Of a stretch of DNA of 64,000 bases, positions 1,547 to 16,760 are shown in pieces (within the stretch, counting starts at the first letter, position 1; the number at the start of each line of letters is the position of its first letter). The DNA comes from Pseudoxanthomonas broegbernensis (lineage in GTDB: Bacteria > Pseudomonadota > Gammaproteobacteria > Xanthomonadales > Xanthomonadaceae). Under the pieces are notes generated by a model. It was not told where the DNA came from. It saw only the letters and a program-made list of their open reading frames with translations, and made no database searches. The stretch spans positions 62,001 to 126,000 of the forward strand of contig NZ_JACHGU010000004.1 in NCBI RefSeq assembly GCF_014202435.1. The letters run 5' to 3'. Made by a program: the position numbers and the translations under genes.

Positions 1547-2989
1547 GTGAAGGAAGCCGACCGCATGCCCCTGACCGACCACGGCTCCGTCCGCCGGCAC
1601 CAGTTCCACGAACGCCTCGGCGTCCTCCACGGCAACCACCTGCACCGCACCCTCAAGGAACGCTTCCCGGCCGCCTTCAACACCCGCTGGACCCGCCGCC
1701 ACTGGCTGCATGCCAGCCTGTTCGCCACCGTGGGCGCGCTGCTGGCCACCATCGTCCCGGGCTTCTCCTCGCAACTGCAGCCGGCCCTGCCGCTGCACGC
1801 CACCCTGCCGCTGAGCCTGCCGCCGCAGACCGTGCGGCCGCCACTCGCCAGCCAGCCCGGCCAGCCGTGGGACGTGCTCCAGGTGCAGCCGGGCCAGACC
1901 CTGGGCGGCCTGTTCCAGTCCATGGGCGTGCCCGCCGAGACCATGCACCGCATCCTCGAACAGCCGGGCAACCGCGAGACGCTGACCCGGTTGCGCCCCG
2001 GCGCCGAGCTGGCCTTCGCCCGCGGCGAGGACGGTGCGCTGCTGGGCTTCCGCTTCGACCGCAGCCCGACCCAGCGCGTGGAGCTGAGCCTGGCCGGCGG
2101 CAAGGTCCGCGAGAAGGTGCTGGAGCGGGCCACCACCACCCGCGTGGCCGTGGCCGGCGCCGAGATCGACCACTCGCTGTACGCGGCCGGGCGCAAGGCC
2201 GGCCTGAGCCCCGCCGCCATCGCGGTGATGACCGACGAGATCTTCTCCTACGACATCGACTTCAAGGACGTGCAGCCGGGCGACCGCTTCAGCGCGGTGG
2301 TGGAGGAGACCTGGCGCGACGGCGAGCGGATCGGCTCCGGCCGCATCCTCGCGGCCACCTTCACCACCGGCGGCAAGACCTACACCGGCTTCCGCTTCGA
2401 GCGCGACGGCAAGGCCCAGTTCTTCACCCAGGACGGCCGCCCGCTGAAGAAGAGCTTCATCCGCATGCCGATCCCCTATGCGCGCCTGTCCTCCAAGTTC
2501 GGCGCGCGCCGGCACCCGGTGCTGGGCAGCATGCGCATGCACAAGGGCGTGGACTACGCCGCCGCCTCCGGTACCCCGATCATGGCCGCCGGCGACGCGC
2601 GCGTGCAGTTCGTCGGCCAGCAGCGCGGCTACGGCAACGTGGTGATCCTGGACCACGGCCGCGGCCACACCACGCTGTACGCGCACATGTCGCGCTTCGG
2701 CAAGATCAAGCGCGGCCAGCAGGTGGCGCAGGGCTCGGTGATCGGCTACGTCGGCTCCACCGGCATGGCCACCGGCCCGCACCTGCACTACGAGTTCCGG
2801 GTCAACGGCGCGCACCGCAACCCGCTGTCGGTGACCATGCCGCCGCCCGAGCCGCTCAAGGGCGCCGAGCTGGCCGCCTTCCGCGCCCAGGCCGCACCGG
2901 CCCTGGCCCGGATCGAGTCGATGGAAAAGCTGATGTTCGCCACCGCCGCGGCGGCGCCCCAGGACAAGCCCCGCGACAAGCGCGGCTGA
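1547..2989 (+). CDS. M23 family metallopeptidase (LytM-type murein endopeptidase), membrane-anchored
   Basis: A 480-residue envelope protein predicted to cut peptidoglycan cross-links. There is a short basic N-terminus, one membrane segment around residues 53-72, a LysM/OapA-like substrate-binding region (about 100-290), and a C-terminal M23 domain. The zinc ligands are visible: HKGVD near residue 332 and HLHYE near 412-416, with the usual G-x-G-N-x-V-x-x-D-H-G segment between them. All metal ligands are present, so it is expected to be active rather than a degenerate activator. The frame opens with GTG at 1547; ATG at 1565 (MPLTDHGS) has an AAGGA about 10 bases upstream and is an equally good start. 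Confidence 0.93.
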   Translation: MKEADRMPLTDHGSVRRHQFHERLGVLHGNHLHRTLKERFPAAFNTRWTRRHWLHASLFATVGALLATIVPGFSSQLQPALPLHATLPLSLPPQTVRPPLASQPGQPWDVLQVQPGQTLGGLFQSMGVPAETMHRILEQPGNRETLTRLRPGAELAFARGEDGALLGFRFDRSPTQRVELSLAGGKVREKVLERATTTRVAVAGAEIDHSLYAAGRKAGLSPAAIAVMTDEIFSYDIDFKDVQPGDRFSAVVEETWRDGERIGSGRILAATFTTGGKTYTGFRFERDGKAQFFTQDGRPLKKSFIRMPIPYARLSSKFGARRHPVLGSMRMHKGVDYAAASGTPIMAAGDARVQFVGQQRGYGNVVILDHGRGHTTLYAHMSRFGKIKRGQQVAQGSVIGYVGSTGMATGPHLHYEFRVNGAHRNPLSVTMPPPEPLKGAELAAFRAQAAPALARIESMEKLMFATAAAAPQDKPRDKRG

Positions 2990-3096
2990 GCCGGCGCCCG
3001 CGCGGCCACGCTTGTCGCCATCGCAAACGCCGGATGCGGCAGCGGCCAGGCCGGCGCGGCGGCAGCCCCCGCTGAGCCGGCATCATGTCGCTGGCC

Positions 3097-3113
3097 GGAG
3101 CCGGCTCCTACAA
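3097..3113 (+). repeat. GTAG-type palindromic repeat fragment overlapping the anmK promoter
   Basis: GGAGCCGGCTCCTACAA is the same core seen in several other intergenic gaps of this window (read on the minus strand as TTGTAGGAGCCGGCTCC). Such repeats resemble the GTAG-type REP elements known from Stenotrophomonas and relatives. Its last bases, TACAA, plus the next T form a TACAAT -10 element at 3109-3114. Confidence 0.55.
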
Positions 3114-3120
3114 TGGCCGC

Positions 3121-4233
3121 ATGTCGCACCTGTTCATCGGACTGATCTCCGGCACCAGCGCCGACGGCATCGACGCGGCCTTGGTCGAGTTCCCCGGCGC
3201 CAACGCAACCGAGGGCCTGCGCCTGCATGCCGCGCGCGTGCATGCCTGGGCGCCGGCGTTGCGCGAGCGCCTGGTTGCGCTGGGCCAGGGCGGCGAGCCG
3301 GCCTCGCTGGACGAACTGGGCCGGCTGGACGTGCAGGTGGCCCAGGCCTTCGCCACGGCCGCCCTGGCCTTGCTGGAAGACGCGGGCGTCGCTTCGGCCC
3401 GGGTCGCGGCGATCGGTTCGCACGGGCAGACCGCGCGCCACCGCCCGCATGGCGATGCCCCGTTCACGATGCAACTCGGCGACGGCAGCGTGATCGCCGA
3501 GCGCACCGGCATCGCCACCGTGGCCGACTTCCGCCGCCGCGACGTGGCCGCCGGCGGCCAGGGCGCGCCGCTGGTGCCGGCCTTCCACGCCGCGCTGCTG
3601 CACGCGCCGCACGAGGACCGCGCCGTGCTCAACCTCGGCGGCATCGGCAACTACACCCTGCTGCCGCGCACGGGACAGGTGCGCGGCTTCGACACCGGGC
3701 CGGCCAACGCCCTGCTCGATGCCTGGTGCCTGCGCCACACCGGCGCCGCGTACGATGCCGACGGCGCCTTCGCCGCCAGCGGCACGGTCGACGACGCCCT
3801 GCTCGCGCGCCTGCTCGGCGAACCGTGGTTCGCGCAGCCGCCGCCCAAGAGCACCGGCCGCGAGCAGTTCCACCTGGACTGGGTGCAGGCCGGCCTGCGC
3901 GGCGGCGAGTCGCCGGCCGACGTCCAGGCCACCTTGCTGGAACTGAGCGCGGCCACCCTGGCCGACGCGCTGCGAGCGCACCAGCCCGGCACCGCGCGGG
4001 TACTCGCCTGCGGCGGCGGCGTGCGCAACGGGCCGCTGATGCGGCGCATCGCCGCGCGCCTGCCCGGGGTGGCGGTGGAGTCCACCGCCGCGCACGGCCT
4101 GGACCCGGATTTCGTGGAGGCCATGGCCTTCGCCTGGCTGGCGCGCGAGGCTTTGGCCGGGCGGCCGGGCAACCTGCCGGCGGTCACCGGCGCGCGCGGG
4201 CCGCGGGTGCTGGGCGTGGTGCATCCGGCCTGA
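3121..4233 (+). CDS. anmK: anhydro-N-acetylmuramic acid kinase
   Basis: Recycles cell wall: opens the 1,6-anhydro ring of anhydro-MurNAc and phosphorylates it with ATP to MurNAc-6-phosphate. The 370-residue product begins [20 protein letters not shown], where GTSxDGxD is the family's nucleotide-binding signature. [22 protein letters not shown] and NLGGIGNYT are the sugar-site and phosphate loops of the ASKHA fold. ATG 3121 is chosen over an in-frame ATG at 3085 because homologues start just before [16 protein letters not shown] box ends only six bases before this ATG, so the mRNA may be leaderless. The preceding M23 peptidase also acts on the wall, but the promoter between them suggests separate transcription. 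Confidence 0.95.
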
Positions 4234-11837: not shown

Positions 11838-13070
11838 TCATGCGCGCAGCCGCTCGGCGATCAGCTCGACCAGGCCGTCGGCCAGGCGCACCTTGGGCGC
11901 GGGCGGGAAGTCGCGTTCGCCGCCGGGCCAGTAGGCGGTCATGGCGTTGTCGTCGCTCTCGAACCCGCTGCCGGGTACGCCCACCCGGTTGGCCACGATC
12001 AGGTCCAGGCGCTTGGCGGTCAGTTTCTGACGCGCGTAGTCGGCCACGTTGTCGGTCTCGGCGGCGAAGCCGACCACCAGCTTCAGGCCGGCGTCCGCGC
12101 GCTGGGCCACCTCGGCCAGGATGTCCGGGGTGCGCACCAGGTCCAGGACCAGGGACTGGCCGGTGCCGGTCTTCTTGATCTTGCTGGGCGAGAACGCGCG
12201 CGCGGTGTAGTCGGCCACCGCCGCGGCGCCGACGTAGATGTCCGCCGGCAGGGCGTCGGCCACCGCCTGGCGCATCTGCGCGGCCGAGCGCACGTCCATG
12301 CGGCGCACCCCGCGCGGGGTTTCCAGTTGCACCGGGCCGGACACCAGCACCACCTGCGCGCCCTGGCGCGCGGCGGCGTCGGCCACGGCGAAGCCCATCT
12401 TGCCGCTGCTGCGGTTGCCCAGGTAGCGCACCGGGTCCAGGTCCTCGTAGGTCGGGCCGGCGCTGACCACCACCTTCAGGCCCTGCAGTAGGCCGGAAGC
12501 GACTACCGCCGGGCCGGCGGTGCCGGCCAGCGCGGCGACGATGGCCTCCGGCTCGCTCAGCCGGCCGGGGCCGGACTCGCCCTCGGCCAGTGGGCCGTCG
12601 TCCGGGCCGATCACCTGCACCCCGCGCGCGCGCAGCGCGGCGACGTTGGCCTCGGTGGCCGGGTGCCGCCACATGCGGTGGTTCATCGCCGGGACCACCG
12701 CCAGCGGCGCCTCGGTGGCCAGGCACAGGGTCGCGACCAGGTCGTCGGCCAGGCCATGGGCCAGCCGCGCCAGCAGGTCGGCGGTGGCCGGGGCGACGAC
12801 CACCCGCTCGGCCCAGCGCGCCAGTTCCAGGTGGCCCATCGCCTGCTCGGCGGCGCCGTCCCACAGGGTGGTCCGGGTGGGGTGGCCGGACAGGGCCTGG
12901 AAGCTGAGCGGGGTGACGAACTGCTGCGCGCCGGCGGTCATGGCCACCTGCACCGCAGCGCCGGCGTCGCGCAGGCGCCGGACCAGCTCCAGCGACTTGT
13001 AGGCGGCGATGCCGCCGCCCACGCACAACAGTATCCGCTGTCCCGCCAGTGCGGTGGCCGAAGCACTCAC
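11838..13070 (-). CDS. coaBC: bifunctional phosphopantothenoylcysteine decarboxylase/synthetase
   Basis: Makes 4'-phosphopantetheine for coenzyme A: the C-terminal CoaB half ligates cysteine to phosphopantothenate and the N-terminal CoaC half decarboxylates the product using FMN. Visible: [15 protein letters not shown] at the N-terminus, PAMNHRMW (the P-x-M-N-x-x-M-W substrate clamp), [24 protein letters not shown] at the CoaB start, and KIKKTG, the K-x-K-K motif of the synthetase. The likely start is GTG 13070 (410 residues), which lies inside the first copy of a duplicated ~83-bp sequence; the open frame upstream of it translates that repeat and is not expected to be made. Confidence 0.95.
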
Positions 13071-13151
13071 GTGGGAACTTCCTACCCTGAGATTGGCCGC
13101 CAAGCTTACTCCAAGCGCCGCGATGCTCCGATCCCCGGCGCCTGCCATGGC
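13069..13151. repeat. Copy A of a duplicated coaBC/radC 5' region
   Basis: From the coaBC start codon rightwards this ~83-bp sequence is about 85% identical to copy B at 15989-16069, in the same orientation. Shared blocks are GGAACTTCCTACCC, TGGCCGCC, AGC-TACTCC and GCGCCGCGATGCTCCGATCCCC. Copy A abuts coaBC and copy B abuts radC. The rest of the gap, 13152-13455 (about 300 bases), contains no gene I can support. Confidence 0.75.
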
Positions 13152-13455
13152 CCGTTGCACGAGCCGTTGCGCGGCATTGACGCGATGCACCATCGGCACG
13201 TGTCGACGGAAGGGCCTGTGACGGTCCGGCCGGCGTTCGCAGCCCTCCAGCGGGCCATCGGTAGCCGCGGCGCCGGGACACCCAGGACGACAGGGATTTC
13301 GACTGCAGCCCGGGCCGGCAACGTCGATCCGGGAACGCAACGGCCCGTGGCCGCATCGAATGGTCAGACACAACGACGATGGGCAAAGCGGCGGTGGCGA
13401 CGACGCCCTTTGCGGCTTTTCACCATCGGCCAACTCCGACCGCAAGGAGATCGAC

Positions 13456-13794
13456 ATGCTCAACTACGCCGTTACCGTATTCGCAATCGCCGCCCTCGGG
13501 GGTCTCTATCTTGCCGGGCATGTGTTCCGCGGCCGACTGCCCCCCTGGGCTGTCTCGCTCCTGCACGCCGGCCTTGGAGCGCTGGGGCTCATCCTGCTGA
13601 TCGTGGCGTTGGTCCAAGGGGAGGCCTCGCGAGCGGTCCTGATCGGTTTCGGGATCTTGCTGGTCGCGGCCCTTGGCGGATTCCTCCTCGCCTCGTTCCA
13701 TCTGCGCAGGCGCCTGCCGCCCAGGGCCATTGTCGTGGTTCATGCCGGCGTCGCGGTGGCCGGGTTCCTGACCGTTCTCTCCCAGGTCTTCTGA
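13456..13794 (+). CDS. small four-helix membrane protein, unknown function
   Basis: 112 residues, nearly all hydrophobic, with four likely membrane segments. It is an internal duplication: two halves each consist of a helix, a short basic loop (FRGRLPPWAVSLLHAG and LRRRLPPRAIVVVHAG) and a second helix, so R-x-R-L-P-P-x-A-x-x-x-x-H-A-G occurs twice. AAGGAG lies 9 bases before the ATG at 13456, a strong ribosome-binding site. It is the first gene of a four-gene group with a DUF2231 protein, folE and an ECF sigma factor. I do not recognise a function. Confidence 0.7.
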   Translation: MLNYAVTVFAIAALGGLYLAGHVFRGRLPPWAVSLLHAGLGALGLILLIVALVQGEASRAVLIGFGILLVAALGGFLLASFHLRRRLPPRAIVVVHAGVAVAGFLTVLSQVF

Positions 13795-13798
13795 TGCC

Positions 13799-14218
13799 AT
13801 GCGCCATCCCCTGCATCCGGCGCTTGTGCACTTCCCGGTGGCCTGCTGGTCGCTTGCGGTCGCCGCCGACTTCGCCAGCCTCTGGCTGGGAGAAGCCGCC
13901 TGGCGCTGGTCGGGCGGCCTGCTCGCCGTCGGTTGCTCGACTGCCCTGATCGCCATGCTGGCAGGCCTGGTGGAGTTGCCCCTAGTACCCGAGGGCGCAC
14001 CAATGCGGGACGCCTGGATGCACATGGGTGCGATGCTGGCCGCCTTCACATTGTTCCTGGCGCGGCTGCTCCTCCGGCTCGATCACTTGCGGCCGGTCGC
14101 GCCGGATGCATGTTCGCTGCTGCTCGACGCATGCGGGTTCATCGCCCTGACCATCGGCGGCTGGTTTGGCGGGAAGCTGGTCTATGGCCACGGCATCGGG
14201 CGTGGCCGGTCCGGATGA
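13799..14218 (+). CDS. DUF2231 family membrane protein
   Basis: 139 residues opening with MRHPLHPALVHFPVACW, the His-Pro-x-His-Pro-x-x-x-H-F-P signature of DUF2231, followed by four predicted membrane helices. DUF2231 proteins are found in many bacteria; their conserved histidines have led to suggestions of metal or haem involvement, but no function is established that I can cite. It starts four bases after the stop of the previous membrane protein, so they are very likely cotranslated. The gene lies in the cargo between the two copies of the coaBC/radC flanking repeat. Confidence 0.8.
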   Translation: MRHPLHPALVHFPVACWSLAVAADFASLWLGEAAWRWSGGLLAVGCSTALIAMLAGLVELPLVPEGAPMRDAWMHMGAMLAAFTLFLARLLLRLDHLRPVAPDACSLLLDACGFIALTIGGWFGGKLVYGHGIGRGRSG

Positions 14219-14306
14219 ACGCCGTCCCCCAACGTCCCCGGCATCGGCCGGCCACCCGCAACGTGGCACTGCCCGCGCCGCGTCGCGGCCGACCAGGAGT
14301 CTGACC

Positions 14307-15032
14307 ATGCCCAACGCCTTGCGCGCCCCGGCCCTTGCCTGTGAACACACCTCCACATCCAGCCGGATCCGGGCACGGCTCAGGAAGGCCGGACAGATGT
14401 TCCGGGCCAACGACAACATCGCGGCCTTCATCGAGGAAGGCGAACTGGACGAGCTGCGCCTGGAGGTCGAGAACCGGATGAGTGAAGTACTGAACGCCCT
14501 GGTGATCGACACCGGCAGCGATCACAACACCATCCGTACCGCGCACCGCGTGGCGAAGATGTTCGTCGAGGAGGTATTCGCGGGCCGGTATCGCGCAGCG
14601 CCGCCGATCACCAGCTTCCCGAACGTGTCGCGGCTCGATGAGCTGATGATCGTCGGTCCGATCACCGTGCGCAGCGCCTGCTCGCACCACTTGTGCCCGA
14701 TCATGGGAAGGATATGGATCGGCGTGTTGCCCAATGCCGGCGCGGAGCTGATCGGGCTTTCGAAATTCGCGCGACTCTGTGACTGGATCATGCGCCGGCC
14801 GCAGATCCAGGAAGAGGCCGTGATCATGCTGGCCGACGAACTGGAGCGGCGCATCCGGCCCGACGGCCTGGCCGTGGTGATGGATGCGAACCACTTCTGC
14901 ATGCACTGGCGCGGGATCGAGGATGGGCAACCCGTGATGACCACATCGGTCATGCGTGGCGCCTTCCTGGAAAACGATGCTCTGCGGCGCGAGTTCATTG
15001 AACTGCGTGCCCGGGAACATCGATGCGCTTGA
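14307..15032 (+). CDS. folE: GTP cyclohydrolase I (non-canonical paralogue)
   Basis: Converts GTP to 7,8-dihydroneopterin triphosphate, the first step to folate or other pterins. The 241-residue product keeps the zinc ligands: Cys and His in SACSHHLCPIMGR (E. coli STCEHHFV) and the second Cys in NHFCMHWRGI (E. coli HYCVKARGI), plus GLSKFARLCDWIMRRPQIQE. It has about 25 extra N-terminal residues and differs from the usual enzyme at the glutamate of CEHH, here serine. Its place in a small cargo with an ECF sigma factor, rather than in a folate operon, suggests a second, condition-specific copy. Start ATG 14307 is preceded by AGGAG (14296-14300). Confidence 0.88.
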   Translation: MPNALRAPALACEHTSTSSRIRARLRKAGQMFRANDNIAAFIEEGELDELRLEVENRMSEVLNALVIDTGSDHNTIRTAHRVAKMFVEEVFAGRYRAAPPITSFPNVSRLDELMIVGPITVRSACSHHLCPIMGRIWIGVLPNAGAELIGLSKFARLCDWIMRRPQIQEEAVIMLADELERRIRPDGLAVVMDANHFCMHWRGIEDGQPVMTTSVMRGAFLENDALRREFIELRAREHRCA

Positions 15033-15153
15033 AGGCCGCATGCGCAAGAGGCCCCGAATCCCTGGGCGCGCCGTTGGCGGCCGCGATCCAGCCGCCGGGC
15101 CGGGCGCACAATGGCCGGGGCCGGCGGCATTTCCGGAAGCACGGGAGGAGTTG

Positions 15154-15864
15154 ATGCAAAAGGTCGAATGTCCGGCTCCCGCCCTGTACTCCCGGGATGT
15201 CCTGGATGCCGAGTTGGCGAAACTCGCGGCGCAGGGGGACGGCGCCGCCTTCGAGGCGATCATGCGGCGCCATAACCGGCTCCTGTTCCGCACCGCGCGC
15301 GGCATCGTGCGAAGTGACGGCGAAGCCGAGGAGGTCGCACAGGAGGCCTGGATGAGGGCCTGGCGGAGGCTTTCCGATTTCCGCGCCGAGAGCAAGCTGT
15401 CCACCTGGCTGGTCCGGATCGCAGTGAACGAGGCGCTTGGCCGCTTGCGCCGGAAGAGCGCGCAGATCATCCCTCTGGAGACAGCCATGGTGTCGCCCAA
15501 CGACACGCAGTCGGCGCTCACCGAAGCTCCGGACCGCGGACCGGAACAATCGGCCGAGCGGTCGCAGCTCCGGGCCCTCATCGAGGCCCGCATCGGCCTG
15601 CTGCCAGAGGCGTTCCGCAGCGTCTTCATGCTGCGCGCGGTCGAGGAAATGAGCGTGGACGAGGTGGCGGAAGCCCTGGACGTCCCCGCAGCCACGGTGC
15701 GGACACGGTATTTCCGCGCCCGCGCGTTGTTGCGCGAGAGCCTCGAGAAGGAGATCGACATCGCGATCGGCGACGTCTTCAGCTTCGACGGCGAACGTTG
15801 CGACCGCATCGTCGCCAACGTCATGGCGTGGGCCCGTACGGAAGGCCTTTGCAGGGGCGCCTGA
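15154..15864 (+). CDS. ECF-family RNA polymerase sigma factor
   Basis: 236 residues with the two ECF regions: sigma-2 at about 30-95 ([30 protein letters not shown]) and sigma-4 at about 145-200 ([44 protein letters not shown]). After sigma-4 there is a ~30-residue tail, [20 protein letters not shown], with a single Cys, recurrent in one ECF subgroup. No anti-sigma gene with a zinc-binding HxxxCxxC or membrane domain follows. GGAGGAG lies seven bases before ATG 15154. It probably controls its own group (folE and the two membrane proteins); this is inferred from position. The stop is about 220 bases from radC. Confidence 0.88.
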
Positions 15865-15988
15865 TGGCGAACGGGGCACGATCCGGCGGGCAAGGCACGC
15901 CGCGCCGGCCCGAAACATTGACAGGACGTGCAAGCGGCAGCCCACCACCACGCACTGTCCACCAGCGCAGGGCGGGCCGTGGGGCCCG

Positions 15989-16069
15989 CGTGGGGAACTT
16001 CCTACCCGGGAGTGGCCGCCGAGCCTACTCCCCGCGCCGCGATGCTCCGATCCCCGCGCCGGCCACGGC
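15989..16069. repeat. Copy B of the duplicated coaBC/radC 5' region
   Basis: Direct-orientation partner of copy A (13069-13151), with the blocks GGAACTTCCTACCC, TGGCCGCC, and GCGCCGCGATGCTCCGATCCCC in the same order. It ends about 17 bases before the radC start and so is radC's own upstream region. The simplest reading is that coaBC and radC were once divergent neighbours sharing this one intergenic sequence, now present on both sides of a 2.8-kb insertion. Confidence 0.75.
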
Positions 16070-16085
16070 CCTGCATCCTGCGGCC

Positions 16086-16760
16086 ATGCACATCCGCGAC
16101 TGGCCCAGCACCGAGCGTCCCCGCGAGAAACTGCTGGCCCGCGGCGCCGGCGTGCTGTCCGATGCCGAGCTCCTGGCGATCTTCCTCGGTTCGGGCACCA
16201 AGGGCCGCGACGCGGTGCGCACCTCGCGCGACCTGCTCGCCGGCCACGGCCCGCTGCGCACCCTGCTGGACCTCCGCCCCGCCGACCTCGCGCGCCTGCC
16301 CGGCCTGGGCCCGGCCCGCGCCTGCCTGCTGGCCGCCGCGCTGGAACTGGGCAACCGGCACCTGGCGGCGGCGCTGGAGCGCGGCGATGCGTTGACCGAC
16401 CCGGTGGCCGCCGGCCGCTATTTCGCCCGCCGCCTGCGTCCCCACGCGCACGAGGTGTTCGCGGCGCTGTTCCTGGACACGCGGCATCGCGCGCTGGCCT
16501 TCGAGGAAGTGTTCCACGGCACCATCGACAGCGCCGAGGTGCATCCGCGCGAGATCGTGCGCCGCGCGCTGGCGCACAACGCCGCGGCGGTGATCGTGGG
16601 CCACAACCACCCGTCCGGCTGCAGCGCCCCTTCCGCCGCCGACCGCGCCGTCACCCTGCGGCTCAAGCAAGCGCTGTCGCTGGTGGAGGTGCGGCTGCTG
16701 GACCACTTCGTGGTCGGCGACGGCGAGCCGGTGTCGATGGCCGCCCAGGGCCTGGTCTGA
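16086..16760 (+). CDS. radC: RadC family JAB-domain protein
   Basis: 224 residues. The N-terminal part ([38 protein letters not shown]) and a helix-hairpin-helix ([15 protein letters not shown]) precede a C-terminal JAB/MPN metalloprotease-like domain with the zinc motif [10 protein letters not shown], then [30 protein letters not shown]. Despite its name, a role in DNA repair is not established; the protein is widespread and its substrate unknown. Divergent radC-coaBC pairing is common in proteobacteria; here the two are separated by the folE/sigma-factor cargo. Confidence 0.95.

Follow-up and report, generated by a model that had tools for sequence, protein, structure and literature searches.

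A foreign operon flanked by a long direct repeat of host sequence between coaBC and radC in Pseudoxanthomonas broegbernensis

In Pseudoxanthomonas broegbernensis, the divergent genes coaBC and radC are separated by a four-gene operon of foreign origin, which lies between two direct copies of host control sequence at a site that is empty in the 16 other sampled members of the genus. The locus is part of a 64,000-nucleotide stretch (contig NZ_JACHGU010000004.1, positions 62,001 to 126,000; hereafter the window, to which coordinates refer unless another record is named), on contig C4 of an assembly that totals 3.47 Mb and has 32 contigs. We conclude with good confidence that the operon was inserted into the divergent coaBC–radC control region, that the target was duplicated, and that this took place in the lineage of P. 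broegbernensis. The arrangement, the empty sites, the foreignness of the cargo and the host origin of the repeat rest on observation; what we infer is that a single event was responsible, the order of its steps and the route of joining.

Two copies of one control region

Copies A (13073–13153) and B (15993–16071) were found in a whole-genome search as a direct repeat with 88% identity over 81 columns (expect value, E, 1.2e-20). They were recovered again (87.7%, E 3.8e-22) when the 4 kb to the left of the operon were compared with the 4 kb to the right, the runner-up plus-strand pair among the matches listed reaching E 0.001. A preliminary description of this DNA had reported a direct repeat of about 83 bp flanking the cargo, about 85% identical by hand alignment, and both the repeat and this identity hold. 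It had also pointed out that occurrence at many unrelated sites would make the sequence a dispersed repeat; in the whole genome, the repeat matches the places of copies A and B only, which rules this out.

While the repeat itself stands, its length of about 83 bp does not describe the full duplication, which is probably 120–160 bp long and ends about 10 bp before radC, since the repeat appears to reach into the 5′ coding end of coaBC. A longer pairwise alignment joins 13011–13159 of A to 15934–16075 of B, and a profile built from 16 congeners, run on the full window, starts to align at 15929 and continues through radC. In addition, when the flank to the left of B was extended along the beginnings of the coaBC reading frame in the 16 congeners, it scored a mean of 26.4, a value that none of 250 random window segments reached. 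From the pairwise alignment, the profile and this extension test, we read 15929–15988 (minus strand) as a decayed coaBC 5′ coding remnant, the part at 15955–15988 being the firmer assignment and that at 15929–15954 a possible continuation. Copy A as a target stretch, coaBC coding end plus intergenic sequence, would then span 12998–13159, with a left limit anywhere between 12998 and 13038, according to the share of the remnant beside B that one accepts, and the intergenic part of copy B, adjoining radC, is placed at 15989–16075 by the genome search, the alignments and the profile.

The host genes are readily assigned: coaBC occupies 11838–13070 on the minus strand, with a GTG start at 13070 (TIGR00521, 426 bits against a cut-off of 219.7), and radC 16086–16760 on the plus strand (NF000642, 249.6 bits against 180). 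In copy A, the congener alignment marks a stretch TTCCTAC (GTAGGAA on the coaBC strand, minus) at 13079–13085, whose position suggests the coaBC ribosome-binding site, and a conserved 13-mer, AGCTTACTCCAAG (13103–13115, minus strand), which A shares unchanged with 15 of 16 congeners and which is probably, as read by eye, the −10 part of the coaBC promoter. Copy B holds both elements although no coaBC adjoins it: the ribosome-binding stretch of coaBC type, recognized from the sequence and the alignments, lies at 15999–16005 (minus strand), and the 13-mer, seen there by comparison with A and the congeners as AGCCTACTCCCCG with three changes, at 16022–16034 (minus strand).

RadC is present in all 17 genomes of the genus, that of P. 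broegbernensis included, and no other genome in the set exceeds 90% RadC identity to it. In each of the 16 other congeners, coaBC lies directly beside radC in divergent orientation and without cargo, with gaps of about 95–126 bp that leave room for one copy only; one of these genomes (L032) is 57% complete and has its coaBC frame in pieces. Comparison with the coaBC–radC gap of related genomes, which the preliminary description had proposed as a check, therefore gives a single empty site in 16 of 16 congeners. With copy A as the query of a DNA search, matches at E ≤ 0.001 came from 11 of 60 genomes, namely its own, nine congeners and one genome of another family (a 33-bp match), and the seven congeners lacking such a match were covered through radC and the alignment. 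Across the family, 136 of 247 sampled genomes were scored, 76 by match lists for both genes and 60 by fetched stretches, with 111 left out. The two genes are divergent in all 136, and the gap measures 3018 bp in P. broegbernensis, 2501 bp in a genome of another genus (G026) and 85–324 bp in the other 134. In G026, the gap holds a single large gene (locus L142, G026:C19:157000-163000, at about 1793–4093), which we read by eye from its translation as a TonB-dependent receptor. This is a second, independent insertion at the coaBC–radC site, and it has no long flanking repeat.

The two copies also differ in what they have kept. Counting as conserved those columns that are kept in at least 15 of the 16 congeners, the profile alignment shows A retaining 24/24 and B 21/24 of the coaBC-proximal columns, and A retaining 4/8 (the other four gapped) and B 8/8 of the radC-proximal ones. 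The columns are few, but the trend goes in the expected direction, as though each copy had kept the half needed by its own gene. Moreover, an uninterrupted run of 22 bases is the same in A and B at a place where the congeners vary, matching A at 9–15 and B at 8–16 of the 22 positions (best of five offsets), which argues that both copies derive from this lineage. In the 81-column core, B reaches only 55/81 against any congener. We read these comparisons as a duplication within this lineage, after which B probably changed faster.

The cargo operon and its relatives

The four genes reported in the preliminary description between coaBC and radC were confirmed, all of them on the plus strand. They encode a hydrophobic, small membrane protein of 112 residues (orf1, 13456–13794; no Pfam or NCBIfam family, with homologues at loci L062, L063, L158, L144 and L148), a DUF2231 membrane protein (13799–14218; PF09990, 81.5 bits), a GTP-cyclohydrolase-I-like protein (14307–15032; PF01227, 142 bits) and an extracytoplasmic function (ECF) sigma factor (15154–15864; NF008888, 290.8 bits against a cut-off of 204). 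The third of these is a divergent FolE paralogue, which falls below the equivalog cut-offs of NF006824 (145 against 202) and TIGR00063 (138.7 against 181.6). A separate, canonical-like folE is found elsewhere in the genome (C4:286910-287389), and relatives of the divergent protein are widespread among betaproteobacterial loci. A Pfam search of six proteins (the four cargo products, CoaBC and RadC) found no transposase or integrase, in agreement with the preliminary description; other short open reading frames of the insert were not searched.

An ECF-type promoter motif, GGGAACG-N15-GCATCGAATG, precedes the operon at 13331–13362 (plus strand). In the general form GGGAACG-N13 to 15-GCATC(A/G)AATG, it stands upstream of the operon in the window and at L062, L063 and L158, and was not found at the other seven loci scanned, including both operon copies from the same family. 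A search with the exact pattern gave this one match in the whole genome and zero in the controls. The stretches that separate the operon from the repeat, a left filler at 13160–13327 and, ahead of the coaBC remnant, a right filler at 15877–15928, match only themselves in their own genome. Among the 60 relatives, a query of 13160–13340 returned four matches of 32–44 bp in three genomes, all of them congeners, which involve 13227–13269 of the filler, fall in two unrelated coding contexts and are probably due to chance, and a query of the right flank (15865–15987) two short matches in two genomes.

The cargo is foreign, and its nearest relatives are alphaproteobacterial. By blastn, window positions 13328–15876 align with Oricola nitratireducens (L062) at 77.8% over 2558 columns and 13328–15852 with Roseovarius lutimaris (L063) at 76.6% over 2548 columns; the homology ends sharply, and the two records share the same ends when compared with each other. 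They are the only loci carrying all four genes among 80 kept of 126 confirmed loci in the genome collection. A third complete operon lies on a plasmid of Roseibium aggregatum, and a fourth and fifth are found in G262 and G251, from another genus of the family of P. broegbernensis, that of G262 lying about 317 kb from radC. A FolE of the cargo type is present in 16 of 395 genomes of that family, P. broegbernensis included. A quick tree of 97 FolE rows places the window sequence with the three alphaproteobacterial rows (SH-like approximate likelihood ratio test support 99), and the two copies from its own family fall outside this group (93). The insert has a GC content of 67.2%, lower than the 72.0% of the window. 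No phage record matched the cargo, and none of 79 plasmid records covered 80% of it. In R. lutimaris, the operon is preceded, at a distance of a few hundred bases, by a gene for a DDE transposase (L063, 3659–4735).

The genes near operon copies elsewhere include a cbb3 oxidase, DUF2189 and a copper protein, with NnrS near the sigma factor alone. These neighbours, from three other records, hint weakly at a role in low-oxygen or nitric-oxide metabolism. A part in a light response is a further, speculative possibility. Within the literature collection searched, there was no paper joining DUF2231, GTP cyclohydrolase and a sigma factor, and none joining GTP cyclohydrolase I, an ECF sigma factor and a photolyase; among the papers found with nitric oxide terms, no GTP cyclohydrolase appeared.

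The repeat itself does not belong to this element. It matches the host coaBC–radC region in congener alignments, and no long direct repeat was found across the five other complete operons, where the best plus-strand matches are 18–29 bp long with E 0.004 or worse (best four per locus). The flanking copies are therefore host target and not an element end or an attachment site. The attachment-like site considered in the preliminary description is accordingly not supported, no integrase having been found among the cargo proteins either.

A model for the insertion and its alternatives

All together, these observations allow us to propose a model. After the split from the 16 sampled congeners, an operon of about 2.5 kb and alphaproteobacterial type, equipped with an ECF sigma factor and an ECF-type promoter of its own, would have entered the coaBC–radC control region. 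The host target, some 120–160 bp that start within the first 11–24 codons of coaBC and stop about 10 bp short of radC, would have been left on both sides in direct orientation. Since this stretch holds the upstream sequences of both genes, coaBC and radC would each have retained a full upstream set. The halves that thereby became useless, in B the adjoining fragment of coaBC and in A the portion nearest to radC, would have been decaying since. The preliminary description had suggested that one shared intergenic region was duplicated when the four genes came in, and the empty sites in 16 of 16 congeners, the coaBC ribosome-binding stretch in B and the foreign cargo lend support to that proposal. 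Its suggestion of recombination-mediated integration holds as one of several possible joining routes.

Several results weigh against this model. On the insert alone, the congener profile starts at 15955, with a large compositional bias, and the coaBC remnant beside B, searched separately, gave no significant match (15801–15988, E 0.23). The extension test made with A only is weak, random segments doing as well in 17 of 379 and, separately, 4 of 250 cases. To the right of A no radC remnant was detected, 135 of 379 random segments scoring as well, and the congener profile found no match in 13160–13460. An earlier multiple alignment, with A displaced by one column, gave 20/24 for A and 21/24 for B in the coaBC-proximal columns. 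In the 81-column core, A matches the congener L027 at 64/81, nearly as closely as it matches B (66/81), so that it is the 22-base block that carries the dating to this lineage. A scan of 12950–16200 found neither sigma-70 promoters nor intrinsic terminators, and no source for the two fillers was found in the genome itself or in the 60 relatives searched.

As to how the ends were joined, we favour, with about even confidence, an illegitimate joining of ends, at a staggered break or through a switch in replication, that would have copied the target, a route that demands no homology in the donor. A Campbell-type single crossover, in which the operon arrives on a circular molecule together with part of the coaBC–radC region from this or a near-relative genome and recombination with the chromosome leaves the homology on both sides, would yield exactly two direct copies around the cargo, and single crossovers of circularized incoming DNA are on record (PMC3240628). 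However, it requires a carrier with the host region beside the operon, which none of the five other complete operons has, and the phage and plasmid searches described above offered no such vehicle for the cargo; we therefore give it a minor share of the probability. Only slightly less room is left for a tandem duplication of the intergenic stretch that came first, the operon landing later and harmlessly between the copies. Such a history has the same end product and accounts for the fillers between the copies and the operon, but it needs two events, and no tandem copy was found in the longer coaBC–radC gaps (family regions of at least 260 bp among the 60 fetched), where top scores exceeded the best of 15 shuffles by no more than 2.

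Two further explanations concern the nature of the repeat itself. Direct repeats at both ends and insertion at a gene boundary are what one would expect if the copies were the attL and attR attachment sites of a small integrative element whose integrase has since been lost; yet no integrase was found in the cargo proteins, the five other operon copies lack such ends, the G026 insert sits in the same gap without a repeat, and the repeated sequence is ordinary host control sequence, all of which makes this very improbable. That there was no duplication, coaBC and radC merely having similar promoters, is scarcely credible. Both copies do lie directly upstream of a gene, but their shared orientation is relative to the chromosome and not to the genes, B contains the coaBC ribosome-binding stretch and a coaBC-like remnant, and the 22 identical consecutive bases fall where congeners vary.

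Relation to known systems and significance

The locus looks like a clear further case of a known type, insertion with long target duplication, albeit with unusual cargo. This type was named by Nobusato et al. (2000, Gene 259:99–108), as cited in PMC1643837, PMC3031569, PMC3154945 and PMC4978471; these four papers describe it as frequent with, but not dependent on, restriction-modification genes, and the duplication as long and variable in length. By their account, our case shares with it the long direct copies of a host target around the cargo and the single copy at the empty site of relatives, as well as a repeat that belongs to the target and not to the mobile DNA, with no need for a transposase or integrase. 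It differs in its cargo, an ECF-sigma operon instead of a restriction-modification system; in its host, which is other than Helicobacter; in its target, where a divergent control region is joined by the 5′ end of a gene; and in the level of comparison, between species rather than strains. As the testable structural features are present and the usual cargo is not, we file the locus under this type, with a different cargo and target.

Other processes resemble it in part. Homology-facilitated illegitimate recombination (PMC3240628) likewise brings foreign DNA into the chromosome without a recombinase of its own, but needs homology at one incoming end, and none is visible in the relatives of the operon. 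The target-site duplication of a transposon also repeats the target directly at both ends, but ours is an order of magnitude longer, with no transposase and no terminal inverted repeat seen. A genomic island of the integrase type has direct end repeats as well; here, no integrase was found and the repeat does not travel with the operon.

A broader reading, which we consider rather improbable, has two parts. The operon would be a transferable unit of regulation, complete in itself in that it supplies both an ECF sigma factor and the sole matching promoter of the genome, and would have moved between alpha- and gammaproteobacteria; and long target duplication would be a general, recombinase-free way of entering compact divergent promoters in which neither neighbour is silenced. 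One would expect compact divergent promoters to resist insertion, as an insert severs one or both genes from their control sequences; where the whole control region is duplicated at insertion, that loss of gene control is avoided. The coaBC–radC locus of P. broegbernensis, with its empty site in 16 congeners, decaying halves and foreign operon, offers a dated case that can be dissected. Since it comes from outside Helicobacter and carries something other than a selfish restriction-modification system, gene acquisition without a recombinase may leave this pattern as a general trace, and such traces could be counted across genomes.

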